Below are positions 45,446 to 59,045 of a stretch of 64,000 nucleotides of DNA, in pieces (position 1 is the stretch's first letter; the number at the start of each line of letters is the position of its first letter). The stretch spans positions 372,001 through 436,000 of the forward strand of contig CANLLF010000003.1 of assembly GCA_947491935.1 (NCBI GenBank), in the 5' to 3' direction. A program made the translations under genes and the position numbers. This DNA comes from an uncultured Roseicyclus sp. (lineage in GTDB: Bacteria; Pseudomonadota; Alphaproteobacteria; Rhodobacterales; Rhodobacteraceae). The notes under the pieces were generated by a model that saw nothing but the letters and a program-made list of their open reading frames with translations, did not search any database and had not been told where the DNA came from.

Positions 45446-45852
45446 GGGGGGGGTATCAAGGTTGATAACCCAAGTTAAACCCCTGCCGTAAAACAACAAT
45501 CGCGTTCTCGTTAACCTTCGGGTAACCATGATACGCGGAAGCGGGAGCGTGGTTCCGGTTGTGAATGGCGGTGCCGCCGCACGAAATGTCCGGCTATGGC
45601 CACTCTGACGCCTCGTGTCCGCGCGATGGCCTGCGGCACCGCCCCGTTACACAACCCGCGGCACGTGGCGTCTGGCCGGGTCGGGCAGGGCTTGATCCGC
45701 TGACGGGCGAAAATCAGGTTTGGGTCTGCCGCACCCGACCGCGTCGCCGGGCTCCGTAAAATCCGCCGCATAATTTGCGGCCTCAACAATACATACTTAA
45801 GCCCTTTGGCGGTTTGTCTGTCGCACGCAACGGCGAGGGACGAGGCCGAGAC
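45446..45852. promoter_or_regulatory. Promoter region of the GGDEF-EAL gene, with hairpins and a CtrA-like box
   Basis: GGGTATCAA and TTGATAACCC (45456-45475) form a hairpin just after the hydratase stop, so a terminator is likely. TTAA-N7-GTAAC at 45511-45526 differs by one base from the CtrA box TTAA-N7-TTAAC and also makes a small UUCG-loop hairpin. The rest holds no gene. Confidence 0.4.
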
Positions 45853-47469
45853 ATGACGCATCTTTTGCCTGGAAAACGACAGTGGATGTCGAAGCTGCTG
45901 TCGGGGCGGGCGATTTTCTTCATCTCCGCAATCATCACATGGCCGTTCCTGAGTGAATTCGAATTGTTCGAAAAATTCTATGAGTTCAGTCGCGCCCATG
46001 AAGACTGGGATCTTGATGAATTCGCGCTGTTGCTCATCAACCTCTCGATTGCCTTGACGGTGTCGAGCTGGCACCAGTCTCACCGGCTCAAGAGACTTGT
46101 CGCGGAACGGGAATTCGAGCGCCAACGGGCCGAAAAGAATGCCCTGTACGATCCCCTGACCGGCCTGATCAACCGCAGGGCGTTCTCGGCCATTCTTGAT
46201 GAGACCGGCCCGAACCTACCGGGTCAAAATCAGCGCTACATCGCCATGATGGACCTGGACAAGTTTAAGCCGATCAATGACCTCCACGGCCACGCGATGG
46301 GGGACAAGACCCTTGTGGGTGTTGCCCAACGGCTGGAAGCGGAGATCGGGTCGGACGGAGTTGTGGCGCGGCTTGGCGGGGACGAGTTCGCGGTGATGTT
46401 CGCCCCGACGGTCAGTTCGGAACAGGCGGAACGGATCGCGCGGCGTGTGGTGCACAGCATTGGACAGGCCTTCGACTTTGACGGTGTCCAAATGCGTATC
46501 GGATGTAGCATCGGATTGGCGCAGTGGACGCCCGAGGGGACCAGTTCGGACGCCTTGGGGCATGCGGACCGCGCGCTGTATTCGGCCAAGAGCCAGGGCA
46601 GGAATCAGTTTGCGTGGTACGATGCGGATCTGGACCGCGAATCCATTGCGCGGGCCGAGATCGAATCCGACCTCAGAGCGGCCATCGAGAATCAGGAAAT
46701 CCAGCCGTTCTTTCAACCCATCGTTGATATCGAGACGAATATGTTGACGGGGTTTGAGGTACTGGCGCGGTGGACCCACGCCCGCCATGGACAAATCCCG
46801 CCAGCGGTGTTCATCGAAATCGCGGAAGACAGCGGACAGATCGGAACCCTGGGCCTGAGCCTTTTGAGGCAGGCCTGCACGGCGGCGCGCGGGTGGGACA
46901 GCCGCCTTTCGATTTCCTTCAACGTTTCAGCGCACCAGTTTCACGATCCGAATCTGGTCGACAACATTCGTGAAATCCTGGCGACAAGCGGCCTCAATCC
47001 AAAGCGGATCACGCTGGAAATCACCGAAAGCACCGTCATCGGCGATTTTGACGTTGCCCGCAAAAAGCTGGAGCAACTCAAAGGGATCGGGATTTCCGTA
47101 GCACTTGATGACTTCGGAACCGGTTATTCGAGCCTGGCAAGCCTTCGGCAACTCCCGTTCGACCGGATAAAGATCGACCGCAGCTTTGTGACGAACATCT
47201 CGGCCTTACCGCAAAACCAGAAGATTGTGGCCGGCATAATGTCCCTTGCGACCGGGCTGGAACTGGACGTGACGGCGGAGGGGATCGAGACGACCGAGGA
47301 CCTTGAATTCGTGAAGATGCTGAATTGCACGCTGGGGCAGGGGTTCCTTTTCGAGCAGGCCATTTCGGCCGACGCGGTGTCATGGCTATTGGAAACCGAG
47401 TGGGGTGAACTCCGGCTCAACCCGACCGAGCGGGGCGCCGTGGAGGCGCAGCTCAGCAAGGCCGGTTGA
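45853..47469 (+). CDS. Membrane-bound diguanylate cyclase/phosphodiesterase (GGDEF-EAL)
   Basis: The 538-residue protein has two N-terminal membrane segments (about 15-35 and 58-78), a short coiled linker (LVAEREFERQRAEKNALYDPLTGL), a GGDEF domain with intact RLGGDEFAVMF and no obvious RxxD inhibition site, and an EAL domain with EVLARW in place of EAL. It also has ISFNVSAHQF, LEITES, LDDFGTGYSSL and TAEGIET. Both catalytic cores look mostly complete, though E-V-L is a variation. It would make or break c-di-GMP. I use the ATG at 45853; a TTG at 45775 would extend it. Confidence 0.88.
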   Translation: MTHLLPGKRQWMSKLLSGRAIFFISAIITWPFLSEFELFEKFYEFSRAHEDWDLDEFALLLINLSIALTVSSWHQSHRLKRLVAEREFERQRAEKNALYDPLTGLINRRAFSAILDETGPNLPGQNQRYIAMMDLDKFKPINDLHGHAMGDKTLVGVAQRLEAEIGSDGVVARLGGDEFAVMFAPTVSSEQAERIARRVVHSIGQAFDFDGVQMRIGCSIGLAQWTPEGTSSDALGHADRALYSAKSQGRNQFAWYDADLDRESIARAEIESDLRAAIENQEIQPFFQPIVDIETNMLTGFEVLARWTHARHGQIPPAVFIEIAEDSGQIGTLGLSLLRQACTAARGWDSRLSISFNVSAHQFHDPNLVDNIREILATSGLNPKRITLEITESTVIGDFDVARKKLEQLKGIGISVALDDFGTGYSSLASLRQLPFDRIKIDRSFVTNISALPQNQKIVAGIMSLATGLELDVTAEGIETTEDLEFVKMLNCTLGQGFLFEQAISADAVSWLLETEWGELRLNPTERGAVEAQLSKAG

Positions 47470-47548: not shown

Positions 47549-48859
47549 CTAGCGTTCGGGGATCAGGCCCCTCGGGCTGAAGCGCAGGACCAGCAGCAGG
47601 ATCATGCCCATCGTCAGCAGGCGCATATGGGCCGCGCTGTCGAGCAGGTGTTCGCGGAGCCAGTTGCCGTCGGCCATACCCGCGGTGAGGCCCTGCATCA
47701 GCAGGAGGCCCAGCGGTTCGACCTGCACCCAGAGCCACCAGATCAGGAAGCCGCCCAGAACCGCACCCCAATTGTTGCCGGAGCCGCCGACGATCACCAT
47801 CACCCAGATCAGGAAGGTGAAGCGGAGCGGTTGATAGGTGCCGGGCACCAGCTGACTGTCGAGGGTTGTCATCATCGCGCCCGCCACGCCGCAGACGGCG
47901 GAACCGAGGATGAAGATCTGCAAGTGCCGCGATTTGACGTCCTTGCCCATGGCGGCGGCGGAGACCTCGTTATCGCGGATCGCGCGCATCATGCGGCCCC
48001 AGGGCGAGTTCCACGCCTTTTCGCTGAGCCAGATCAGGAGGCCGAGGACGAGGATGAAGAGCGCGGCGTAGAGGAGTTTGACGGTGATCGTGGAGGCCGT
48101 CACGGGGTCGGCGCCGATATTGCTGACGAGGCCCAGGAAGCGTTCGCTTTCCTGCAGGTCGACCTCGTAGGGGACGGGGCGGTCGATGCCGGTGACGTTC
48201 TTGACGCCGCGGGCGAGCCAATCCTCGTTCTTCAGGACTGCGATGATGATCTCGGCGATGCCGAGGGTCGCGATGGCGAGGTAATCGGAGCGCAGGCCCA
48301 GGGCCGTCTTGCCGATGATCCAGGCGGCCCCGGCGGCCAGGAGGCCCCCAACGGGCCAGGCCAGAAGGATCGGCAGGCCCAGGCCGCCGAGGAACCCGGT
48401 GGAGGCGGGGTTGATCGCCTCCACGGCCTCGGCGCCGGTATCGAAGACCCGGCGGAAGAGGGTGAAGCCGATCAGCAGCACGACAAGCATGACGAGGCCC
48501 CTGAGGCGGCCTTTGGGCATGGCGTTCCACAACAAGATGGCGCCGACGATGGTGAGCGCGCCGAGGACGAGGCCGAGGATCACCTGCAGGCCACCCGCGC
48601 TCCACGCCTCGGGCACCGGCTCGACCGAGACCAGCACGGTGGCGAGGCCGCCGAGGGCCACAAACCCCATGACGCCCACATTGAAGAGGCCGGCGTACCC
48701 CCATTGCATGTTCACGCCGAGCGCCATGATCGCGGAGACCAGCCCCATGTTGAAGATGGTGAGCGCCGTGTTCCACGATTGCACAAAGCCGGTGCCGACA
48801 AAGAGGATCGCGACGAGGCCGAAAAGCATCAGGATCTTGGGATCGAAGCCGCGAGTCAT
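47549..48859 (-). CDS. livM: Branched-chain amino acid-type ABC permease LivM
   Basis: The 436-residue membrane protein has about ten spans and the LivM signatures MQWGYAGLFNVGVMGFVALGG, ALGLRSDYLAIATLGIAEII and AIRDNEVSAAAMGKDVKSRHLQIFILGSAVCGVAGAMM. It is longer than E. coli LivM by an N-terminal insert. It is the last gene of the Liv operon and overlaps livH by 4 bases. Confidence 0.93.
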   Translation of the reverse strand: MTRGFDPKILMLFGLVAILFVGTGFVQSWNTALTIFNMGLVSAIMALGVNMQWGYAGLFNVGVMGFVALGGLATVLVSVEPVPEAWSAGGLQVILGLVLGALTIVGAILLWNAMPKGRLRGLVMLVVLLIGFTLFRRVFDTGAEAVEAINPASTGFLGGLGLPILLAWPVGGLLAAGAAWIIGKTALGLRSDYLAIATLGIAEIIIAVLKNEDWLARGVKNVTGIDRPVPYEVDLQESERFLGLVSNIGADPVTASTITVKLLYAALFILVLGLLIWLSEKAWNSPWGRMMRAIRDNEVSAAAMGKDVKSRHLQIFILGSAVCGVAGAMMTTLDSQLVPGTYQPLRFTFLIWVMVIVGGSGNNWGAVLGGFLIWWLWVQVEPLGLLLMQGLTAGMADGNWLREHLLDSAAHMRLLTMGMILLLVLRFSPRGLIPER

Positions 48860-49866
48860 ACCGATTTCCCCTTCATGATGCCGGTGGGTTTGAAGAGCAG
48901 CACGATCAGCAGGATGCCGAAGGAGACGGCGAATTTGTAATCGGTGCTAAGGAGTTGCAGGAGCCCATCGGGTTGCCACTCCGTCGGCCCCAGATAGCCC
49001 ACAACCTTGCGGAAGGCGTAGGTGACGCCAACCTCGGAAAACGCGATGAGGAAGCCGCCGAGGATCGCGCCGAGCGGGTTGCCCAGGCCGCCCACGATGG
49101 CCGAGGCGAAGATTGGCAGGAGGAGCTGGAAGTAAGTGAAGGGCTTGAAGCTCTTGTCGAGGCCGTAGAGGACGCCTGCCGTGGTGGCCAGCGCCGCCAC
49201 GATGATCCAGGTGATCAGGACAACCCGTTCGGGGTTGATGCCCGAGAGCAGGGCCAGATCCTCGTTGTCGGAAAAGGCGCGCATCGATTTGCCGGTGCGG
49301 GTGCGGTTGAGGAACCAGAAGAGCAGGATCACGGCGATCATCGCCACCACGATGGTGATGCCCTGGGTGGTGCGGAAGGCGAGCCCCTCGTCGAGGCCCG
49401 TCATGTCGCGGAAGGTGCGCGCGCTGATGATGAACCGTTCGCCATCGGCAAAGCGCTGATCATCGACGCCGATGAAGAACCGCACGATGCCGTTCATGAT
49501 GAACATCACGCCGAGCGACGCGATCACGAAGATCACCGGCTTGGCCTTTTGCTGGCGGTAGAAGCGGTAGATCGTGCGGTCCGTGCCGATCACCAGAAGC
49601 GCGGTGGCGGCGATCCCCAGCGGCAGGGCCAGAAGCGCCGTGGGCAGGATCCCGAAGGTGATGCCCGCCGCCTGCAGGCCCCAGGTGGCGAAGATGGTGA
49701 CCATGGTGCCAAACGCCATCGTGTCGCCATGGGCGAAGTTGGAAAACCGCAAGATGCCGTAGATCAGCGTGACCCCCAGCGCGCCGAGCGCCAGTTGCGC
49801 CCCATAGGCAGTGGCCGGAATGATGACGAAATTCGCCAGCGTAACGAAGGCGTTCAGGACGTCCAC
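48856..49866 (-). CDS. livH: Branched-chain amino acid-type ABC permease LivH
   Basis: The 336-residue protein has about eight spans with GALGVTLIYGILRFSNFAHGD near the front and RAFSDNEDLALLSGINPERVV in the EAA region, then GGLGNPLGAILGGFLIAFSE. The start is the GTG at 49866 (MDVLNAFVTLANF), because GGGGAGAG lies 6 bases upstream; the longer frame from 50052 has no such site. It lies 100 bases after the last small secreted gene. Confidence 0.92.
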   Translation of the reverse strand: MDVLNAFVTLANFVIIPATAYGAQLALGALGVTLIYGILRFSNFAHGDTMAFGTMVTIFATWGLQAAGITFGILPTALLALPLGIAATALLVIGTDRTIYRFYRQQKAKPVIFVIASLGVMFIMNGIVRFFIGVDDQRFADGERFIISARTFRDMTGLDEGLAFRTTQGITIVVAMIAVILLFWFLNRTRTGKSMRAFSDNEDLALLSGINPERVVLITWIIVAALATTAGVLYGLDKSFKPFTYFQLLLPIFASAIVGGLGNPLGAILGGFLIAFSEVGVTYAFRKVVGYLGPTEWQPDGLLQLLSTDYKFAVSFGILLIVLLFKPTGIMKGKSV

Positions 49867-49966: not shown

Positions 49967-50323
49967 TCATAGCGGTGCACATGTGCCGAAAAGGGTGGTG
50001 GTGCGCGCCGGGCCGTCATGGCCGTGGACCGACAGCAGCGCGCGGCCGTCATCGAGGATCGTCAGAAGCTCCCCGATGGCGGCTTCACTGGCCCCGGCAT
50101 AGGCGGCGGGCAGGTGGCCCTGCGGGCTGAGCCTTTGCACGGGGCGGTCGCCTGCGGGGGTGGTGAGGAACAATTGCCCCTCATGGTCGGCGGCGATGAT
50201 ACCGTAGGTATGATCGATGGCGTCACAATCGACATTCTGGCAGCGCACGGTCATCTGGCAGGTCCAGGGCTCGGCGGCGGCGGGCGGGCCGATGACGGCA
50301 AGGGCAAGGGCGATGCGGATCAT
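49967..50323 (-). CDS. Small secreted Cys-pattern protein 5 of the liv operon
   Basis: Not a family I can name. The 118-residue protein has a signal peptide (IALALAVIGPPAAAEP). The mature form begins WTCQMTVRCQNVDC, i.e. C-x5-C-x4-C, and ends LFGTCAPL with the fourth Cys 4 residues before the end. In between are short strand-like pieces (QLFLTTPAGDRPV, ALLSVHGHDG). Four cysteines suggest two disulfides in the periplasm. It overlaps the gene before it by ATGA. The same cysteine plan occurs in four upstream neighbours. Confidence 0.72.
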   Translation of the reverse strand: MIRIALALAVIGPPAAAEPWTCQMTVRCQNVDCDAIDHTYGIIAADHEGQLFLTTPAGDRPVQRLSPQGHLPAAYAGASEAAIGELLTILDDGRALLSVHGHDGPARTTTLFGTCAPL

Positions 50324-50733
50324 GACGCAGCCGCCGCCCGGCAATGATTGCGCATCCACTGGTTCGACAGGGCGGGTTCGGGCGGCCGACCAAGGCGGAT
50401 GGCATCCAGCGTGACGGCACCGTCCGCGGCCTCCGCCGCGGCGGGGATGAGAGCCAGGCCGAGAGACGGGTCGGCCAGATGACGGGCCAGGGCCGCGCCC
50501 TCCTCCCGGGCCAGAAGGACCGGGAAACCGCCCCAATCCGCCGCCGGGTCCCACAGCCAATCCTGCCCGTCGAACATCAGGGTAAAGTCGGGGCCGGAGG
50601 GAAACGGGCGGCAGGTGTCATCGTCGACGCAGATCTCCACCAGGGTGCAGGTCATCCGCGTTGGCAGCGCGTCCTGTGCCGATGCGGCCATGGCGGGCCC
50701 GGCCATCAGGGCGATGGCAAGAAGCGCCCTCAT
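50320..50733 (-). CDS. Small secreted Cys-pattern protein 4 of the liv operon
   Basis: The 137-residue protein has a signal peptide (ALLAIALMAGPAMAASA). The mature N-terminus has MTCTLVEICVDDDTCRPF, i.e. C-x5-C-x5-C, and the last Cys is in NQWMRNHCRAAAAS. DFTLMFDGQDWLWDPAADW is tryptophan-rich. Overlaps both neighbours by 4 bases. It is the most diverged of the set, with a longer C-terminal part. Function unknown. Confidence 0.72.
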   Translation of the reverse strand: MRALLAIALMAGPAMAASAQDALPTRMTCTLVEICVDDDTCRPFPSGPDFTLMFDGQDWLWDPAADWGGFPVLLAREEGAALARHLADPSLGLALIPAAAEAADGAVTLDAIRLGRPPEPALSNQWMRNHCRAAAAS

Positions 50734-51134
50734 TCCGCCACCTCGCACCTGCCGAGGCCCGAGACGACGCGCGTGCCCGCCTGCGGCTGATGGCCCGTCA
50801 CCACGACATCGCCGGTGCTGTCGAAGGTGATCATCTGGCTTGCCTGCGTTTGCGCGTTGCGGAACAGGAGGCTGCGCACGCGGACCTGTTCGACGGCATC
50901 GGCGGGAGGCCGATAATCGGCGATCAACTCATAGTCCGAGGGCAGATCCGCGTTCCACGTCACGCGCCAGCCCTCCGCGCCCTCCACGATATTGATCTGC
51001 TGATTCCAATCGCGGCAGGCGCCGACATCTGGGCAGAGGATGTTGAGCTGGCAGGTCCAGTTGATCTGGGCTTCCTGGGCCGAGGCGAGAAGCGGCGTTG
51101 CAATGGCGAGGGCGGCGAGCAGGGCAGCGCGCAT
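50730..51134 (-). CDS. Small secreted Cys-pattern protein 3 of the liv operon
   Basis: The 134-residue protein has a signal peptide (ALLAALAIATPLLASAQ). The mature form opens INWTCQLNILCPDVGACRDW, C-x5-C-x5-C, and ends GLGRCEVAE. The pieces between are hydrophobic-polar alternating (INIVEGAEGWRVTW, QMITFDSTGDVVVTG), as in a small beta-sheet protein. GGAGG precedes the start. It overlaps the next gene by ATGA. Confidence 0.74.
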   Translation of the reverse strand: MRAALLAALAIATPLLASAQEAQINWTCQLNILCPDVGACRDWNQQINIVEGAEGWRVTWNADLPSDYELIADYRPPADAVEQVRVRSLLFRNAQTQASQMITFDSTGDVVVTGHQPQAGTRVVSGLGRCEVAE

Positions 51135-51143
51135 GGGAACCTC

Positions 51144-51362
51144 CTAGGGTCGGGACAAGCCGGAGTGGCGACCGCTGGAATTGATCGCGGCGGGGTGGCC
51201 CTCCAGCGTGAAATGGCGCGGGTGATGGGCAACGAAGGTGTTGAAAAGTATGATGATTGCCCGGTTCCCGTGGCCAAGCGGCACGACGCTCGGCGCGGAC
51301 ACGGTTTCATCCGCGATCGCGGTGACGGCCCGGAGCAGACGGACGGGCGGCAACGTCTTCAT
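51144..51362 (-). CDS. Small unknown frame between Cys-pattern genes 2 and 3
   Basis: The 72-residue frame starts with ATG overlapping the stop of gene 2 (ATGA) and ends 9 bases before gene 3, so its placement is that of a coupled gene. It has no signal peptide and no cysteine; NRAIIILFNTFVAHHPRHF is the only hydrophobic part. It has no recognisable relatives. Without it there would be a 224-base gap in an operon that is otherwise tightly packed. It could equally be a chance frame or a remnant of a sixth paralogue. Confidence 0.4.
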   Translation of the reverse strand: MKTLPPVRLLRAVTAIADETVSAPSVVPLGHGNRAIIILFNTFVAHHPRHFTLEGHPAAINSSGRHSGLSRP

Positions 51363-51724
51363 GTGCGAGGCTCACAGGTGCCGAAATAGGAGATCGACTG
51401 GATCCGGTCTCCCGGCGCGATGTCGTGCTGCGTCATCACGGCCTCGCCGGCAGGTGTGACGCTCAGAAGGATGGTACTGTCCTGCGCCGTGTCGAACAGG
51501 ACCGAGAGGGCCGGCGGGGTGGTGTTCGACAACGGGGTCCCGAGGATCAGGCCCTCGCCGGTCATGAAACTGAAGCCGCCGCCCGTCACGTCGAAGACAA
51601 AGGGCACGCCGTCATTCGTCTGGCACCCGGTCAGGGGTGAGCAGATGGTGGTGAAGGTGCAATCAAGGCCCGCGCCCAGGGCCGCGCCGGGCAACAGCAG
51701 GGCGAGGCAGAGGGCGCGCATCAT
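51359..51724 (-). CDS. Small secreted Cys-pattern protein 2 of the liv operon
   Basis: The 121-residue protein has a short signal peptide (ALCLALLLPGAALGA). The mature form begins GLDCTFTTICSPLTGCQTND, C-x5-C-x5-C, and ends SYFGTCEPRT, very like protein 5 (LFGTCAPL). ILLSVTPAGEAVMTQHDI is also alike to ALLSVHGHDG of protein 5. Overlap with gene 1 by ATGA. No known function. Confidence 0.74.
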   Translation of the reverse strand: MMRALCLALLLPGAALGAGLDCTFTTICSPLTGCQTNDGVPFVFDVTGGGFSFMTGEGLILGTPLSNTTPPALSVLFDTAQDSTILLSVTPAGEAVMTQHDIAPGDRIQSISYFGTCEPRT

Positions 51725-52161
51725 TGCGGGGTGTCCCAACAGCTCATCACGAAATAGCGGCGCTGCAAGATCGGGTCTGCGTTGTCGGGCGTCGCGGGCT
51801 GCACGAAAAGGGCAAATCGGCGCGCGGGGCCTTCGGGCGGCAGATCTACAAGAAGCGAGCGGCGCGTGTCGACGGGGGCGAGGGGATGGACGGCTTCGAT
51901 ATTGGGGTATCGGTCGATCGGCTCCAGATCCGCTTCGCTTTGCCCCAGGAACGTGTCCGTGCCGTCGAAGCGCAGGAGCAACTCACCTGGGGCGGGAAGA
52001 TCGGCGCAGCCGCCATCGATGCGGCAGGTATCAACGATGATGCATTCTGCCTCGAAAGGCCTTGGGCCGTCGCCCTCATCTCCAATGGCGGCGAAGGCCG
52101 CGCTTCCCAGGACTGCGCAAAGCGCGATGGGCGGAGATCTGGAGAGGACGGCCCGCATCAT
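51721..52161 (-). CDS. Small secreted Cys-pattern protein 1 of the liv operon
   Basis: The 146-residue protein begins with a signal peptide (IALCAVLGSAAFAA). The mature form has FEAECIIVDTCRIDGGCADL, C-x5-C-x5-C, then LLLRFDGTDTFLG, and ends RYFVMSCWDTPQ. It is the first of the set after livF (4-base gap). A role in binding or delivery of the substrate, or in stabilising the LivK-permease contact, is a guess from position only. Confidence 0.74.
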   Translation of the reverse strand: MMRAVLSRSPPIALCAVLGSAAFAAIGDEGDGPRPFEAECIIVDTCRIDGGCADLPAPGELLLRFDGTDTFLGQSEADLEPIDRYPNIEAVHPLAPVDTRRSLLVDLPPEGPARRFALFVQPATPDNADPILQRRYFVMSCWDTPQ

Positions 52162-52165
52162 CCCG

Positions 52166-52999
52166 TTACCCGCCGAGGAAGGATTTGCGCACCTCCGGAT
52201 CGGCCAGAAGCTCCTTGCCGGTGCCGGAATAGGCGTTGCGCCCCTGGACAAGGACGTAGCCCTTATCGGCGATCTCAAGGGCCTGCCGTGCGTTTTGTTC
52301 AACCATTAAAATGGGAATACCGGTTCGTGAGACTTCGATAATCCGGTCGAAGAGTTCGTCCATCACGATGGGGGAGACGCCCGCCGTGGGCTCATCCAGC
52401 ATCAGGACCTTGGGCTGGGTCATCAGCGCGCGGCCCACGGCGACCTGCTGACGCTGCCCGCCCGACAGCTCGCCTGCCGCCTGTTTGCGCTTGTCCCGCA
52501 GGATCGGGAACAGGTCATAGATCTGCTCCATCGTTGCGCGGATATCGTCGCGGCGGATGAACGCGCCCATCTCGAGGTTTTCTTCCACGGTCATGGAGGT
52601 GAAGATATTCGAGGTCTGCGGCACGAAGCCCATGCCCTTGCCGACGCGGGCCTGCGGGGTGAGGGCGGAGATATCCTCGCCATCCAGCACCACGCGGCCT
52701 TCGCGCAGGTTCAGCATCCCGAAGACGGCCTTCATCGCCGTTGATTTGCCCGCGCCGTTCGGGCCTACGATCACCGCGATCTCACCGGGATTCACCGCGA
52801 TGGTGCAGGTGTGCAGGATATCCGCGCCCGAGCCGTAGCCGCCTGTCATCGCCTCACCGATCAGGAAGGCGTCCGCCGCATCGGCGATCTTGGCCTGGCC
52901 ACCGGGCGGCACCGGATAGGCGGTGCTGCCGGGGCGGGGATTGGTGATCGACATGTCCTTGTTGCCGCGGTCGTTCTGGTAGGGGTTTGTGTCGGTCAT
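52166..52999 (-). CDS. livF: Branched-chain amino acid-type ABC ATPase LivF
   Basis: The 277-residue ATPase has Walker A VGPNGAGKSTAM (about 78-90), Q-loop FVPQTSNIFTSMTVEENLEMGAF, signature ELSGGQRQQVAVGRAL and Walker B VLMLDEPTAGVSPIVMDELF. It has an N-terminal extension of about 45 residues (PRPGSTAYPVPPGGQAKIAD) beyond normal LivF. It overlaps the secreted gene before it by ATGA. Confidence 0.93.
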   Translation of the reverse strand: MTDTNPYQNDRGNKDMSITNPRPGSTAYPVPPGGQAKIADAADAFLIGEAMTGGYGSGADILHTCTIAVNPGEIAVIVGPNGAGKSTAMKAVFGMLNLREGRVVLDGEDISALTPQARVGKGMGFVPQTSNIFTSMTVEENLEMGAFIRRDDIRATMEQIYDLFPILRDKRKQAAGELSGGQRQQVAVGRALMTQPKVLMLDEPTAGVSPIVMDELFDRIIEVSRTGIPILMVEQNARQALEIADKGYVLVQGRNAYSGTGKELLADPEVRKSFLGG

Positions 53000-53574
53000 A
53001 AGCTCACCTGAACATTGGACACGAAGCGGTCGTGCAGCGCGCGGTGGCGCGAGGTATAGGTTGTGGCCCCGATATCGAGGGTGACGAATTGCGCGACGGC
53101 GCCGTCGAGCAGCACGATGGAGTTGGAATAGACGATGCCGACCCCGTCGACATTGCCGAAATAAACGAAATTCGGATGGACCTGCCCGTCGATGGTGACG
53201 GAGACGCGGTCCAGGACCAGGATGTCAGGGGCCGGGATGCCTGCGGAATCCGACAGGATTTCAAGTGCTTCGGCCTGTAGCGCGTCGATGGTGAGCCCAT
53301 CGGCCCGGCCTGCGGCTTCGATGATTGCGACGGCCTGAATGGCCTCGGGGGTGACGTAATAGGCCGTCACCTCCGCGTTGTCGGCCTGCGGGGCCAGGGT
53401 GAATTGGGGGGAGGTGCCGCAGAACCGGAACGGGCCCTCCACAAGGGCGCAATCGCGCGGCCCGGCAGGGGCGGGCGTGGCGGCGGTGATGTCCTCGGGT
53501 TTCGGTTGGTCGGGCGCGGTTTGCGCGATGGCGGGCGCGGCCAGTGTCAGGGCCAGCAGCGCGGCGCGGATCAC
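52996..53574 (-). CDS. Secreted protein between livG and livF
   Basis: I do not recognise the family. The 192-residue protein has a signal peptide (ALLALTLAAPAIAQT), a Pro/Ala/Thr linker (PKPEDITAATPAPAG), a cysteine pair DCALVEGPFRFCG and a well-formed domain (QFTLAPQADNAEVTAYYVTP, then ALEILSDSAGI, VSVTIDGQVHPNFVYFGNVD). It overlaps livG and livF by ATGA on each side, so it must be made with the two ATPases although it goes to the periplasm. Its cysteines differ from those of the five small proteins. Confidence 0.78.
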   Translation of the reverse strand: MIRAALLALTLAAPAIAQTAPDQPKPEDITAATPAPAGPRDCALVEGPFRFCGTSPQFTLAPQADNAEVTAYYVTPEAIQAVAIIEAAGRADGLTIDALQAEALEILSDSAGIPAPDILVLDRVSVTIDGQVHPNFVYFGNVDGVGIVYSNSIVLLDGAVAQFVTLDIGATTYTSRHRALHDRFVSNVQVSL

Positions 53575-54359
53575 GCCGGCTCCTCCAGCTTGTCCTTGTT
53601 CTTCAGGCCGGTGCCCAGATAGGCCTCGATCACGGCGTCATTGGCCTTGATCTCATCCAATGAGCCTTCGGCCAGCACCTTGCCCTCGGCCATACAAATG
53701 ACGGGGTCGCAGAGGCGGCCGATGAAATCCATGTCATGCTCGATCACGCAGAACGTATAGGCCCGTTCCTTGTTCAGGCGGATGATCGCGTCGCCGATCG
53801 TGTTGAGCAGCGTGCGGTTCACGCCGGCGCCGACCTCATCAAGGAAGACGATCTTGGCGTCGACCATCATGGTGCGGCCCAGCTCCAGGAGCTTCTTCTG
53901 CCCGCCGGAAATCTGGCCCGCCGGTTGGTCGGCCAGATGCTCGACCGTCAGGAATTCCAGCACCTCATCGGCCTTGGCGCGGAGCGCGCGTTCCTCATCA
54001 GCGATGCGTTTGCGCCCGAACCAGGTGTTCCACAGGCCTTCGCCTGTCTGCCCGCCCGGCACCATCATCAGGTTTTCGCGGCATGTCATGGAGGAGAATT
54101 CATGCGCGATCTGGAAGGTGCGCAAAAGGCCCTTGTCGAAAAGCTCGTGGGGCTTGAGGCCGGTGATATCCTCACCATCCATCACTACTTTGCCGCCGGT
54201 CGGCGGCAGGACACCGGCGATCACATTGAAGAGCGTTGTCTTGCCCGCCCCGTTGGGGCCGATCAGCCCGGTGATCGAGCCGGTTTCGATCGTCAGGGTG
54301 GCGCCATCCACGGCGTGAAAGCCGCCGAAATGCTTGTGGATGTCATGGACGGCGATCAT
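53571..54359 (-). CDS. livG: Branched-chain amino acid-type ABC ATPase LivG
   Basis: The 262-residue ATPase has Walker A GPNGAGKTTLFNVIAG (about 33-48), Q-loop LRTFQIAHEFSSMTCRENLMM, signature QISGGQKKLLELGR and Walker B IVFLDEVGAGVNRTLL (Glu kept; usual DEP replaced by DEV). FCVIEHDMDFIGRLCDPVICM is LivG-like. An attenuating hairpin lies between it and livK. Confidence 0.93.
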   Translation of the reverse strand: MIAVHDIHKHFGGFHAVDGATLTIETGSITGLIGPNGAGKTTLFNVIAGVLPPTGGKVVMDGEDITGLKPHELFDKGLLRTFQIAHEFSSMTCRENLMMVPGGQTGEGLWNTWFGRKRIADEERALRAKADEVLEFLTVEHLADQPAGQISGGQKKLLELGRTMMVDAKIVFLDEVGAGVNRTLLNTIGDAIIRLNKERAYTFCVIEHDMDFIGRLCDPVICMAEGKVLAEGSLDEIKANDAVIEAYLGTGLKNKDKLEEPA

Positions 54360-54430: not shown

Positions 54431-55627
54431 TTAGCGGTAGCCTGCGACCACCAGTTCACCACCTTCGATCTGGATCTCACGGTAATTGCCGGCGCTTTCG
54501 CCGCCACCGATGAGTTCTACCGCGGACGCGCCGACATAATCGATGTCTTCGCCATTGGCGATCATCTCAAGCGCCATGCCAAGCTGACCCGGCAGGATCT
54601 CGGTGCCCGGGGCGTTGGCCACGTTCATGACCTCACCCATGTAATCGGCCGGGTTCCGGGAGCCCGACGCCGCCATGGCCAGCATGATCAGCGCCGCCGC
54701 ATCGTAGGATTCCGCGGAGAAGGGCGAGGTGCCGTCAAATCCAGCCTCTTCCGCCATGCCCTGATAGATGCCCGCGCCTTCGCTGTCGGTTCCAGGGTTC
54801 TGGCCGAACGAGCCGTCAATGTCGGATCCGAAATTATCCACGAGCGCCTGGGAGACCATGCCATCGGGGAAGACGAAAGTGTCAAACGCACCAGTGTCGA
54901 GCGAGGCCTGGATCACGCCGGATCCGCCCTGGTCCACATAACCCGCAACCACAAGCGCATCACCGCCGGCCGAGGCCAGTGCGCCGACTTCAGCGGAATA
55001 ATCCGCGCGGCCATCTTCATGGGCTGCGGAGAGCGTCACGGTGCCACCGGCTTCCTCAAACGCGGCGGAGAACGCATCGGCCAGGCCCTGACCGTAATCG
55101 TTGTTGGTGTAGGTCAGCGCGACGGTGTCGATACCGCGTTCCATGATGATCTCGGCCATCACAACACCCTGACGGGCATCGGACGGTGCGGTGCGGAAGA
55201 ACAACCCGTTGTCTTCAGCGGTCGACAGGCCGGGCGAGGTGGCCGAGGGCGAGATCATGACCATGCCGTTGGGCACAGCGACGTTGGCAAGGATCGAGCC
55301 GGTCACGCCGGAGCAATCCGCGCCCACGATGCCGTGCACACCATCCGACGTGATCAGACGTTCGGCCGCGGCCTGGGCGGCGGACGAGTCAACGCAGGTG
55401 GAGTCCGCGCGGACGGAGGTGACAGAGGCGCCGCCGAAGAGCAAACCACTCTCGGTGACTTCGGCCATCGCCAGTTCCGCGCCGTCCCCCATAGCGGGTG
55501 TGATCGATTCAATCGGGCCCGTGAAGCCGAGGATCACGCCAAGCGTGACGTCGCCCTGGTGGCCATCCGCTGCGGCAACACCTGTCAAGGCAAGAGTTGC
55601 GGCCGAAGCCAGCAAAAACTTTTTCAT
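54431..55627 (-). CDS. livK: Branched-chain amino acid/amide-type substrate-binding protein LivK
   Basis: The 398-residue protein has a signal peptide (FLLASAATLALTGVAAADG). The family-6 binding pattern follows: LGVILGFTGPIESITPAMGDG, AERLITSDGVHGIVGADCSG, SPSATSPGLSTAEDNGLFFRT and SYDAAALIMLAMA. Its own cysteines (STCVDS and GADCSG) likely form one disulfide. It is the first gene of the operon. The ligand could be branched amino acids, amides or something else. Confidence 0.92.
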   Translation of the reverse strand: MKKFLLASAATLALTGVAAADGHQGDVTLGVILGFTGPIESITPAMGDGAELAMAEVTESGLLFGGASVTSVRADSTCVDSSAAQAAAERLITSDGVHGIVGADCSGVTGSILANVAVPNGMVMISPSATSPGLSTAEDNGLFFRTAPSDARQGVVMAEIIMERGIDTVALTYTNNDYGQGLADAFSAAFEEAGGTVTLSAAHEDGRADYSAEVGALASAGGDALVVAGYVDQGGSGVIQASLDTGAFDTFVFPDGMVSQALVDNFGSDIDGSFGQNPGTDSEGAGIYQGMAEEAGFDGTSPFSAESYDAAALIMLAMAASGSRNPADYMGEVMNVANAPGTEILPGQLGMALEMIANGEDIDYVGASAVELIGGGESAGNYREIQIEGGELVVAGYR

Positions 55628-55742: not shown

Positions 55743-57179
55743 TCAGACCAGGGAGGGCAGCCACAGGACAATACCCGGAAAGGCGATGAGCACCGCGATC
55801 GTGGCGACGTCCGCGGCAAAGAACGGCGTGGCCCCTTTGAAGACATCCTGCACGCCGATGGGCAGACCGGTATCCTTGGCGACGCCGGCCACCACGAAGC
55901 AGTTGAGGCCGATGGGCGGCGTGATCAGGCACAGCTCCGCCATCTTCACCACGATGATCCCGAACCAGATCGCGCATTCTTCGGCCGTCATGCCAAAGGC
56001 GCTGGCCTCCCGCGTGATGTCGGGGCCCCCGTTCAAGGCGATCACCGCCGGGAAGGCCACTGGCAGGGTCAGGATCAGCATCCCGATCGCATCCATGAAC
56101 ATGCCAAGGATCACATAGACCAGCAGGATGCAGAGCAGGATCACGTAAGGCGAATATTCCAGGCCCCCGATGAAGGTGGCGAAGGTGTCCGGCAGATCCG
56201 CATAACCCAGGAACCGCACAAAGATCAGCACACCCCAGATCATCGCGAAGATCATTGCGGTGAGTTTTGCCGCCTCCATGAGCGCGGTCTTGAGCTGGTC
56301 CCATTTCATGCCCCGGAAGATCGCCATGGCGAAGACGACGAAAGCACCTAGCGCCCCGGCTTCGGTGGGCGTGGCCCAGGCGCCGTCATCCCCGCGGTAG
56401 TAGATCGAGAAGATGATGATGAAGATCACGAAGAGGATCGGGAAGGTGCCGGGCAGTGAGGCAAAGCGCTCCCCCCAGGTGAAGCCGCGCACCGGTGGCC
56501 CGAGCGCGGGCTTTGCGGCGGCCATGCCGGTGACCAGCCCCGCATAGATCAGCGCGGAGACAAAGCCCGGCAGGAAGCCGGCAAGAAGCAGCTTGCCGAC
56601 GGATTCCTCGACGATGATGGCATAGATCACCAGAATGGCCGAGGGCGGAATGAGCGAGGCCAGCGTACCGCCCGCCGCGACCACGCCTGCGGCGAACGCC
56701 TTGTCGTAGCCCACCTTCAGCATTTCGGGGATGGCGATCCGCGCGAAGACGGCCGAGGTTGCGACCGACGCGCCGGAGACCGCCGCAAAACCCGCGGTCG
56801 CAAAGACCGTCGAGACGGCCAGCCCGCCCGGCAACCAGCCGACCCAGCGCTTTGCCGCCTCGAAGAGCGCCTTTGTCAGGCCCGCGTAATAGGCGAGGTA
56901 ACCGATCAGGATGAAGGTCGGGATCAGGCTCAGCGCATAACCGGAGCTTTTGGAATGCGGCACCTGACCGGCGGTCAGAAGCGCTGTTGCGAGGCCCCGG
57001 TCAAAGCCCTGCCGCGCCATGAAGAAAATGCACAGGCCCAGGATCCCCACAAAGGCCGCCGCGAAGGCCACGCGCACGCCGATCAGCACCAGAACCAGCA
57101 ATAACCCGCAGAGCCACAGCGAGACGTTGAAGATATCCACCCCCTCCAAAAGGGCGCGCATGTCGATGATGCTATCCAC
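55743..57179 (-). CDS. dctM: TRAP transporter large permease, DctM type
   Basis: The 478-residue membrane protein has about 12 spans and the DctM signatures FAAVSGASVATSAVFARIAIPEM, DKAFAAGVVAAGGTLASLIPPSAILVIYAI and MDAIGMLILTLPVAFPAV. It drives sodium-coupled uptake of an organic acid with DctQ and DctP. Length is slightly more than usual (about 430). A gap of 168 bases with an inverted repeat separates it from dctQ. Confidence 0.92.
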   Translation of the reverse strand: MDSIIDMRALLEGVDIFNVSLWLCGLLLVLVLIGVRVAFAAAFVGILGLCIFFMARQGFDRGLATALLTAGQVPHSKSSGYALSLIPTFILIGYLAYYAGLTKALFEAAKRWVGWLPGGLAVSTVFATAGFAAVSGASVATSAVFARIAIPEMLKVGYDKAFAAGVVAAGGTLASLIPPSAILVIYAIIVEESVGKLLLAGFLPGFVSALIYAGLVTGMAAAKPALGPPVRGFTWGERFASLPGTFPILFVIFIIIFSIYYRGDDGAWATPTEAGALGAFVVFAMAIFRGMKWDQLKTALMEAAKLTAMIFAMIWGVLIFVRFLGYADLPDTFATFIGGLEYSPYVILLCILLVYVILGMFMDAIGMLILTLPVAFPAVIALNGGPDITREASAFGMTAEECAIWFGIIVVKMAELCLITPPIGLNCFVVAGVAKDTGLPIGVQDVFKGATPFFAADVATIAVLIAFPGIVLWLPSLV

Positions 57180-57229
57180 GGGGCCGGCCCAATCTGTGAC
57201 CGTTCGCGCGGATGGCGGCGTCGGAATGC

Positions 57230-57337
57230 ATATTTATAGAACAAAGATGGGACAATTTGATTAAAATTGCGCCCTTTTCGTCCGGGCGCGCCGGGTTCCT
57301 GGGCGCGCATCCTTGCCCATCTTTGTTCCTCAAATAT
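57230..57337. repeat. 22-bp inverted repeat around a GC-rich core, between dctQ and dctM
   Basis: Left arm 57230-57251 and right arm 57316-57337 are reverse complements at 19 of 22 bases, with 13 exact inner bases (GAACAAAGATGGG). The core has direct repeats of GGGCGCGC and a small CAATTT/AAATTG hairpin. It looks like an intergenic repeat unit placed inside the TRAP operon. Confidence 0.65.
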
Positions 57338-57347
57338 GAAAATCCCA

Positions 57348-57986
57348 TCATTGGTCACTCTCCCGACCGCTGACGGTTTCCGCCTCCCGTGCGGCAATGG
57401 CCATGGGATCTTCGGGCAGCGGCACGCCGACGGGGCGGTCCTCGCCGGAGATCAGCGCACGGGTATAGATCACCAATTGGATCATCAGGCGCGCCGCAAG
57501 GATCGCAAAGGCCACCGGCACGATGAGTTTCGCGGGCCAGAGCGGCAGGGCGATGTCGATGGAGCTGTCGCGGGAGAAGAACGGTCGGGTCAGGTCGAAG
57601 CTGCGGTCAAAATGCTGCCAGGCGCCGTAGATCAGCGCGATGGTCAGGATCAGCATGAAGAGCGTCGAGAGCCATTCCGCGAACCACAGCGCGCGGCCTT
57701 TTAGGCGCATCACGATGATATCCATGCGGATATGTCCGCCTTCCCGCTGGCAATAGCTGAGCCCGAAAAACGCGAAGACCACCATGAATTGTTCGATCCA
57801 GTCCACATAGCCATAGACCGGCGCGTTGAAGAGTTTGCGGCCCACGACGTGCCACACCGCCATCAGGACAAGCGCGATGATGGTGATGCCGCCCAAAAGG
57901 TTCAGGCGGGCTTCGAACCAGAGCAGAAAGCGATCCGTGCGGGAGACGGCGCTGTCATCGGTCAGGACGTTTGAGGATATGGCCAT
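57348..57986 (-). CDS. dctQ: TRAP transporter small permease, DctQ type
   Basis: The 212-residue membrane protein has four spans, with ITIIALVLMAVWHVVGRKLF, VFAFFGLSYCQREGGHIRMDIIV (the conserved HIRMD) and FMLILTIALIYGAW. It links DctP docking to the large permease. The start follows a hairpin after dctP. Confidence 0.9.
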   Translation of the reverse strand: MAISSNVLTDDSAVSRTDRFLLWFEARLNLLGGITIIALVLMAVWHVVGRKLFNAPVYGYVDWIEQFMVVFAFFGLSYCQREGGHIRMDIIVMRLKGRALWFAEWLSTLFMLILTIALIYGAWQHFDRSFDLTRPFFSRDSSIDIALPLWPAKLIVPVAFAILAARLMIQLVIYTRALISGEDRPVGVPLPEDPMAIAAREAETVSGRESDQ

Positions 57987-57998
57987 GATAAGGTCGAA

Positions 57999-58021
57999 GC
58001 CTCCGCCCGGAGCGCGGAGGC
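57999..58021 (-). promoter_or_regulatory. Intercistronic hairpin between dctP and dctQ
   Basis: GCCTCCGC and GCGGAGGC form a perfect 8-bp stem with a 7-base loop, 13 bases after the dctP stop. Weak T-run only (TTCGACCTT), so partial termination or message protection. Confidence 0.65.
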
Positions 58022-58034
58022 CTCGCGTTTCAGA

Positions 58035-59045
58035 TCATTCGCCGCGATGCTCGGCCAGGGTCGACTGGACCAGATCGTAGAGCTCCTGCGCCGGTAGGCC
58101 CTGGGAGGCCATGTCGTCGATCCACGCCTGATGGATCGGGGCGGCGTTTTCGGCGAGTGTCGCGAGGGTTTCCTCGGGCACCGTCACCCGCTCCACCCCG
58201 CGCTCTTCCAACACTGCATCCCAGCGCTCGATCAACTCGGCGTAGTTCGCAAGATAATGCGCAATCGAATCCTCAACCGCGCCGTCCAGCGCCGCGCGCT
58301 CGTCATCGCTCAGCGCCTCATAGGCATCGATGTTCACCACCACCGGGCAGTTCACGGTGCCGGGATTCAGGTTCTCGGTCCACCAATCGGCGATGTCGAT
58401 GGTGCGGAAGCTGAGATGGGCGTGCTGCGCAAAGGCCACGGTGTCAACGGTGCCGCCTTCTAGCGCCTGGTAGGCCTCCGACGAGGTCACGGAGGTCGGC
58501 ACACCGCCGACGGAGGCAAAAAGCTCGCCCAAGCCACCGGTAGCGCGGACCCGCATGCCGTCCATCTCCGCAATCGTGTCACGCGGATCGCCTGTGCCCA
58601 CGAGGTTGTATTGCGGCATGGGCGACGTCATCAGCATCCGTGCGTTCCACTGCGCCATCTCTTCGGCCACGGCGGGGTGATCGTAGATCGCGTGGGAGAC
58701 GGCGACCTCTTCTTCGAGGTTCGCAACGCCCAGGAACGGCAGTTCCAGCACGGTGATCGCGCGGTTCTTGTCGCGGTGATAGCCGGCGCAGAACTGCGCC
58801 ATCTCGAACGCGCCGATGGAGATGCCATCGAGGTTCTCGCGGTTGTTGGACAGGCCGCCATAGGAAATGTTCAGGGTAAACTCGCCATCCGTGCGTTCGG
58901 CCAGCGCTTCGGCCAGGAACTCCACATGCTCGGTGAAGGCGCGCCGCTGCCCCCAGAGCGAGACATTCCATTCGGTGGCCAGAGCTTCGCCGACGAACGA
59001 CAGCGACAGCACCGCGCCGATGGCGGTGGTGGTCAAATGTTTCAT
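58035..59045 (-). CDS. dctP: TRAP transporter substrate-binding protein, DctP type
   Basis: The 336-residue protein has a signal peptide (TAIGAVLSLSFVGEALA). The DctP pattern follows: FLAEALAERTDGEFTLNISYGG, the carboxylate-binding Arg region MDGMRVRATGGLGELFASVGG, and AYQALEGGTVDTVAFAQHA. First gene of the dctPQM operon. The ligand is an organic acid of unknown kind; puuD and an aldolase are divergent. Confidence 0.9.
   Translation of the reverse strand: MKHLTTTAIGAVLSLSFVGEALATEWNVSLWGQRRAFTEHVEFLAEALAERTDGEFTLNISYGGLSNNRENLDGISIGAFEMAQFCAGYHRDKNRAITVLELPFLGVANLEEEVAVSHAIYDHPAVAEEMAQWNARMLMTSPMPQYNLVGTGDPRDTIAEMDGMRVRATGGLGELFASVGGVPTSVTSSEAYQALEGGTVDTVAFAQHAHLSFRTIDIADWWTENLNPGTVNCPVVVNIDAYEALSDDERAALDGAVEDSIAHYLANYAELIERWDAVLEERGVERVTVPEETLATLAENAAPIHQAWIDDMASQGLPAQELYDLVQSTLAEHRGE

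Follow-up and report, generated by a model that had tools for sequence, protein, structure and literature searches.

Which role could small secreted proteins have when their genes lie in the middle of a putative amino acid transporter operon? Liv operons, which encode branched-chain amino acid ABC transporters of the LivKHMGF (HAAT) type, count among the most familiar uptake systems of bacteria and are regarded as complete when five genes are present, and we know of none with small secreted genes between livF and livH. Five such genes, here called A to E, were noticed in the window, by which we mean the whole analysed stretch of 64,000 nucleotides from an uncultured Roseicyclus sp. A secreted set of this kind, unnamed and variable, is found in many members of one bacterial family, always offered by a fixed slot of such an operon as its place. 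Some genomes have the set and no transporter, and many have the transporter and no set; they provide natural experiments by which the role of the set can be tested.

Gene content and layout of the operon

The operon lies on the minus strand in the order livK-livG-Y-livF-A-B-(X)-C-D-E-livH-livM (Table 1). All five gene types of LivKHMGF are found jointly on one strand, and the operon differs from the known system by the small secreted genes between livF and livH. LivK, LivM and LivF of the window, the three proteins that were scanned, do not reach the cut-offs of the Liv models in NCBIfam. The five genes of the initial annotation are real: as described there, they encode proteins of 118 to 146 residues between livF and livH, spanning positions 49967-52161 of the minus strand. 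Its statement that most stops and starts overlap by 4 bases is correct for A/B, C/D and D/E, but livF and A are separated by 4 bases and B and C lie 224 bases apart. Between B and C lies X, a decayed sixth copy, which had been overlooked when the five genes were called consecutive.

Table 1. Features of the liv operon in the window, in the order of transcription.
Feature	Coordinates	Strand	Description	Basis or conservation
livK	54431..55627	-	livK-type substrate-binding protein	Peripla_BP_6 domain
livG	53571..54359	-	livG-type ATPase	named by position and by eye; conserved in compared loci
Y	52996..53574	-	192 aa, secreted, two Cys, outside the Cys-plan family	
livF	52166..52999	-	livF-type ATPase	NCBIfam scan
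A	51721..52161	-	146 aa, secreted, Cys spacing 5,5	matched in 12/12 congener loci
B	51359..51724	-	121 aa, secreted; start 51724 or 51721	matched in 12/12 congener loci
X	51144..51362	-	decayed sixth copy, 72 aa reading frame without Cys plan	
C	50730..51134	-	134 aa, secreted; modelled all-beta, eight strands	
D	50320..50733	-	137 aa, secreted	matched in 5/12 congener loci, in one only partly
E	49967..50323	-	118 aa, secreted, Cys spacing 5,4	matched in 12/12 congener loci
livH	48856..49866	-	livH-type permease, GTG start	conserved in congener loci
livM	47549..48859	-	livM-type permease	NCBIfam scan

X starts with a 4-base overlap with B and has intact counterparts of 118 residues in two congener loci (L031 4949-5305 and L032 4890-5246). 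By eye, the decay of the sixth copy seems to have taken one course in the window and another in L034 (7614-8073), the latter being the same stretch as congener locus L022. Gene Y overlaps livG and livF by 4 bases each. In other genera the livG-livF slot holds secreted proteins unlike Y, several of them with a DGTW-like motif (by eye). Searches for promoters and terminators gave chance level only, and a search for RNA families found none.

A shared cysteine plan

All five proteins have a hydrophobic N-terminus followed by C-x5-C-x(4-5)-C and one late Cys, in agreement with the signal peptide and cysteine pattern initially reported. The spacing is 5,5 in B, C and D as well. The last Cys is followed by 5 residues in A, 4 in B, 4 in C, 6 in D and 3 in E, so that the 4 to 8 residues given before have to be corrected slightly to 3 to 6.

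The plan is far more common in the livF-livH and other liv gaps than expected. Out of 116 open reading frames (ORFs) in these slots of 72 loci that passed as having a signal peptide, judged by a crude hydropathy score, 91 carry a loose version of the plan, compared with 0.55 expected from residue shuffles and with 3 out of 776 signal-passing ORFs outside the slots. For a strict version, the numbers are 81 slot ORFs, 0.09 expected from shuffles and 0 outside. The start-codon rule of the ORF script missed the congener A gene of L024 and shortened an E-like gene of L043. Congeners contribute 60 of the 91 loose-plan ORFs, and the gap between livF and livH contains 90 of the 91. Their spacing is 5,5 in 69 cases and 5,4 in 13, and 64 have a Gly two residues before the last Cys. 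An alignment of 34 rows, chosen for the Cys plan, has one Gly as the sole invariant residue besides the cysteines, and no catalytic set is visible for this reason.

Distribution and linkage to the liv operon

We built a profile (A1) from the mature parts of 34 proteins selected by their Cys plan. It matches 48 out of 149 genomes of the window's bacterial family as grouped by the genome tool, which we take to be Rhodobacteraceae in the broad sense (NCBI places Roseicyclus in Roseobacteraceae, Rhodobacterales), and 76 out of 244 genomes of the order, a set that overlaps with the first; all matches listed for the order are in the window's bacterial family. These genome counts are lower bounds, because A1 misses A and D in the window's own genome. 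Of 289 genomes drawn from across the class, which include at least four of the window's bacterial family, three were matched. Two of these are the window's genome and another member of the family; the third lies outside the family and has a weakly matching two-Cys relative. Members of the small-protein family were found nearly exclusively in this bacterial family, where an orthologue of LivK is present in 136 of the 149 genomes.

The matches cluster at liv operons. In the first set, 55 out of 61 A1 matches lie in or beside a liv operon, 53 within 5 kb of a LivK orthologue and two on contigs with liv genes; the other six are found in G120 (two), G159, G181 and, as weak matches, G169 and G140. 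A second set comprised 60 further genomes apart from congeners and genomes already counted, with G181 in both sets. Here livH lies no more than 2.5 kb away from 81 out of 85 matches, of which 79 are upstream on the strand of livH and 2 are just downstream, and the four others belong to G259, G181, G262 and a second gene of G350. The distance from the end of the profile to the livH match is at most 10 bases in 34 of the 79 upstream matches. A search with such a profile had been proposed as a check, and the result that would have refuted the idea, with most matches away from Liv, was not obtained. The earlier description of an old tandem family of secreted proteins in the operon of the transporter is supported.

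The gap between livF and livH was measured in the 59 other genera that have both genes on the stretch, out of 60 genera whose loci are mostly the best LivK matches, with a few skipped, and are a non-random sample of the 136 LivK genomes. It is shorter than 100 bases in 32 genera, 231 bases in one and at least 300 bases in 26. A four-Cys member fills 23 of these 26 long gaps, and the other 3 contain a small protein whose mature part has only a first and a last Cys, whose kinship was judged by eye and one of which is without a clear signal by hydropathy score. The claim that known liv operons have no such genes does not hold, given a four-Cys gene in 23 of the 59 other genera. The 12 liv loci L120-L126 and L128-L132, fetched for having matches, were excluded from these frequencies. 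Members also occur in the livG-livF slot (L058, L121, L170 and L172), and the copy number ranges from 0 to 9, with the highest number in L032. Among nine livH-type plasmid records, the two inspected, from Paracoccus ferrooxidans and Rhizobium etli, have no insert.

Conservation and selection within the genus

The order livF-small genes-livH is kept in all 12 congener loci, each of which has matches to A, B, C and E. A search with the single sequence of C was positive for 13 out of 13 genomes of the genus and negative for 48 other genomes. Across the 12 loci the transporter proteins are 82-99% identical to those of the window, and the small proteins, the closest pair aside, mostly 30-77%.

We calculated dN/dS by the Nei-Gojobori method, which gives a gene-wide average in which a few fast sites would be missed. 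Between the window and L022, dN/dS is 0.14 for A, 0.24 for B, 0.19 for C and 0.06 for E; the value of 0.90 for D is uninformative because dS is only 0.019. The pair L023 and L026 gave 0.10-0.27 for A, B, C and E, and the pair L031 and L032 gave 0.07-0.26 for six genes, the latter values being less reliable because dS is near or above 1. In the same pairs dN/dS of the liv genes is 0.016-0.07. The small proteins are under purifying selection, several times weaker than that on the transporter. Where the initial annotation suspected divergent selection, the overall range of 0.06-0.27 for the small genes at informative dS means relaxed purifying selection, and no positive selection was seen in these averages.

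Kinship and age of the small genes

Under liberal blastp settings (E < 1e-4, composition correction off), single-linkage clustering placed B, C and E in one cluster of 60 out of the 91 ORFs, and A and D separately. Comparisons of A and D with the rest by hhalign gave E-values of 0.0027, 0.0005 and 0.00073 at weak probabilities of 11-32%. A and D may be joined to the family by their Cys plan and their place, and weakly by their profiles.

We made a tree of 74 rows from the 91, leaving out 22 beforehand (groups A and D and three less frequent ones) and adding five; the alignment has few columns and the bootstrap had not settled. In this tree proteins of G120 and G194 fall into one group with all 12 C proteins of the genus (support 92/94), and X groups with a protein of G194 (support 97/98). 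E splits into a group of 9 rows and one of 3, support for the B group is absent and most of the deep forks are open. Since C and X group with other genera, at least the C-type and X-type genes are older than the genus, and recent tandem duplication does not explain the whole set. The tree leaves the E and B groups undecided or splits them. A mobile cassette was also considered and dropped: the order is conserved in the genus, and the class-wide search gave one weak two-Cys match outside the family.

Predicted fold and database searches

We modelled C and E with AlphaFold2, using sequences of the window and L034 only. The model of C (ten sequences) is all-beta with eight strands, at pLDDT 79.8 and pTM 0.73, and that of E (six sequences) is poor, with seven strands at pLDDT 60.8 and pTM 0.53. 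Foldseek found nothing below E 0.001 in the PDB for either model, nor did a fold search of C in viral models. The best PDB fold matches have E 0.021 and rmsd 11.2 for C, and E 0.094 and rmsd 6.7 for E; lipocalin-like, LolA-like and factor H-binding-protein-type beta barrels resemble the models weakly, none of them below E 0.001. From the strand count and these weak matches, C is probably a small beta barrel. A common fold of all five proteins is likely, although C alone gave a fair model.

Pfam has no family for A to E, Y or X, and the 34 relatives gave scattered single matches only, the best with E 0.03. In NCBIfam, D and Y match below the cut-off in a signal-peptide-like stretch, and a further scan gave one match with E 0.096. 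A sequence search of the PDB with the A1 profile had 0 matches. Among the papers listed by literature searches, none appeared to describe these genes. By these sequence searches, the proteins form a small-protein family that is described by no Pfam, NCBIfam or PDB family.

The MliC/PliC lysozyme inhibitors are small secreted barrels with a first-to-last disulphide. A to E may resemble them in size, secretion, barrel and first-last disulphide. No MliC/PliC match was found in Pfam for the five proteins (E up to 1) or for the 34 members, and MliC/PliC is not among the 50 PDB fold matches listed for either model.

Small genes without the transporter

The liv operon has a usual neighbourhood, in which a DAHP-synthase-like gene is followed by a GlxA-type regulator gene (AraC and DJ-1 domains) and then livK within about 2 kb. 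The first two genes were found in 16 out of 20 upstream 6-kb stretches, and additionally in L127 and a Paracoccus record. After livM, a penicillin-acylase-like gene is present within the stretch in 6 of 60 loci, and in L045 the row is livM, MmsB-like, acylase-like and HflX-like, these last three names resting on sequence reading by eye.

Three genomes of two genera have two or three small genes at the usual liv locus. L166 (G259) and L118 (G181) both read DAHP synthase, GlxA, two Cys-plan genes, MmsB, acylase and HflX, without any liv gene, and one Cys-plan gene of these rows has the spacing 6,3. The row of L114 (G159) begins and ends alike and contains two Cys-plan genes found by script, a further one found by eye, and no MmsB match. 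A livH orthologue is absent from G159, G181 and G259 at E 1e-80, and a LivK orthologue from G159 and G181 at E 1e-100 (G259 is outside that set). Because LivK is so widespread, the simplest reading is that liv was lost and the small genes were kept. In G262 one small gene lies beside GlxA and livH is on a different contig. G120 has a C-like and an E-like gene behind a TRAP operon resembling that of the window, and its liv operon is without insert.

A transporter subunit is kept and lost with its transporter. This does not apply to A to E, with 32 of the 59 genera having the operon without insert, and with family genes in L114, L118 and L166, whose genomes are without a livH orthologue. Since some genomes keep the genes without liv, or where liv lies elsewhere, A to E are operon companions of Liv and not obligate parts of the transporter.

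In the window, a TRAP transporter operon (dctP, dctQ and dctM types, 55743-59045) lies directly upstream of livK, and the same neighbour is found in L034 and, as dctM, in L029, at the place where 16 of the 20 other stretches have the GlxA-type regulator. Seven other congener stretches, with 0.8-1.7 kb available upstream, showed no dctM. At the other end, a GGDEF-EAL protein gene (45775-47469) converges on the end of the liv operon.

Possible roles of the small proteins

The likeliest role, which we consider quite possible if somewhat short of probable, is that A to E are a diversified repertoire of periplasmic binding proteins which is co-expressed with the uptake system. Each protein would fold in the periplasm as a small beta barrel held by two disulphides, first to last and second to third Cys, a pairing that we infer because relatives exist with only the first and last Cys. 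The proteins would act by binding and not by catalysis, each member holding a different solute or partner. The set would be made together with the uptake system and would serve the nutritional programme of that system, but would not be a constant component of LivKHMGF. Such a repertoire would fit the secretion, the cysteine scaffold without a catalytic set, the fast surfaces, the old paralogues and the occurrence without liv.

Rather unlikely, in our view, are accessory subunits that bind to LivK, or to LivHM from the periplasm, and adjust the choice of ligand, docking or gating. The 79 out of 85 matches upstream of livH, on its strand and within 2.5 kb, the 4-base overlaps and the order kept in 12 of 12 congener loci are in line with them, and the 34 profile ends within 10 bases of livH make a direct role on the permease possible. 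However, the same operon occurs without insert in 32 of 59 other genera, G120 has two of the genes behind a TRAP operon and none in its liv operon, and the three genomes that keep the genes without a livH orthologue weaken the accessory role in ligand choice that was proposed initially. Moreover, LivK is 93-99% identical to that of the window in the 10 of 12 congener loci that cover it, whereas A to E drop to 30-60% in many of these loci, which does not favour a shared conserved interface. The results speak neither for nor against the redox sensors or periplasmic chaperones that were also proposed initially.

An unlikely role is that of protective inhibitors or shields, small disulphide proteins that would act in the periplasm against lysozyme-like enzymes, proteases or toxins of competitors. 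Fast change and a varying number of genes would follow from it, and the fast divergence, the change in copy number, the decay of copies and the little that is kept beyond the Cys plan agree with this. Against it, the gene-wide average of dN/dS is well below 1, the C-type and X-type genes persist across genera, unlike in a fast arms race, and no Pfam match to inhibitor families was found.

The steadily transcribed operon might also offer an expression slot which collects secreted proteins of unrelated minor roles as passengers. Other secreted proteins do lie in the livG-livF slot (Y and the ones unlike it), many genera are without the genes and X is a relic, but a single Cys plan prevails in the slot (91 of 116 ORFs), the genes are under purifying selection and their order is conserved across 12 congener loci, so that we regard mere passengers as improbable.

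GltJK is an ABC permease. A further role, which we regard as very improbable, is that of a diversifying shield whose proteins cap or decoy exposed periplasmic surfaces, e.g. those of the adjoining permease, that competitors exploit to get toxins through the inner membrane; the liv operon would then carry its own variable protection kit, able to outlive the transporter. As background to this role only, a contact-dependent toxin is reported to need GltJK for entry (PMC9291907).

Relatives away from the liv operon

In G350 a lone four-Cys member (L168 6238-6660) lies near a gene named rpsD-like by eye, and another one lies beside livH. Three further lone relatives were noticed away from liv (L117 262-636, L119 6551-7054 and L141 65-487). 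They lack the two middle Cys, second and third, and possibly point to a wider family. L141 and L117 have a common late stretch like AVHSRH.
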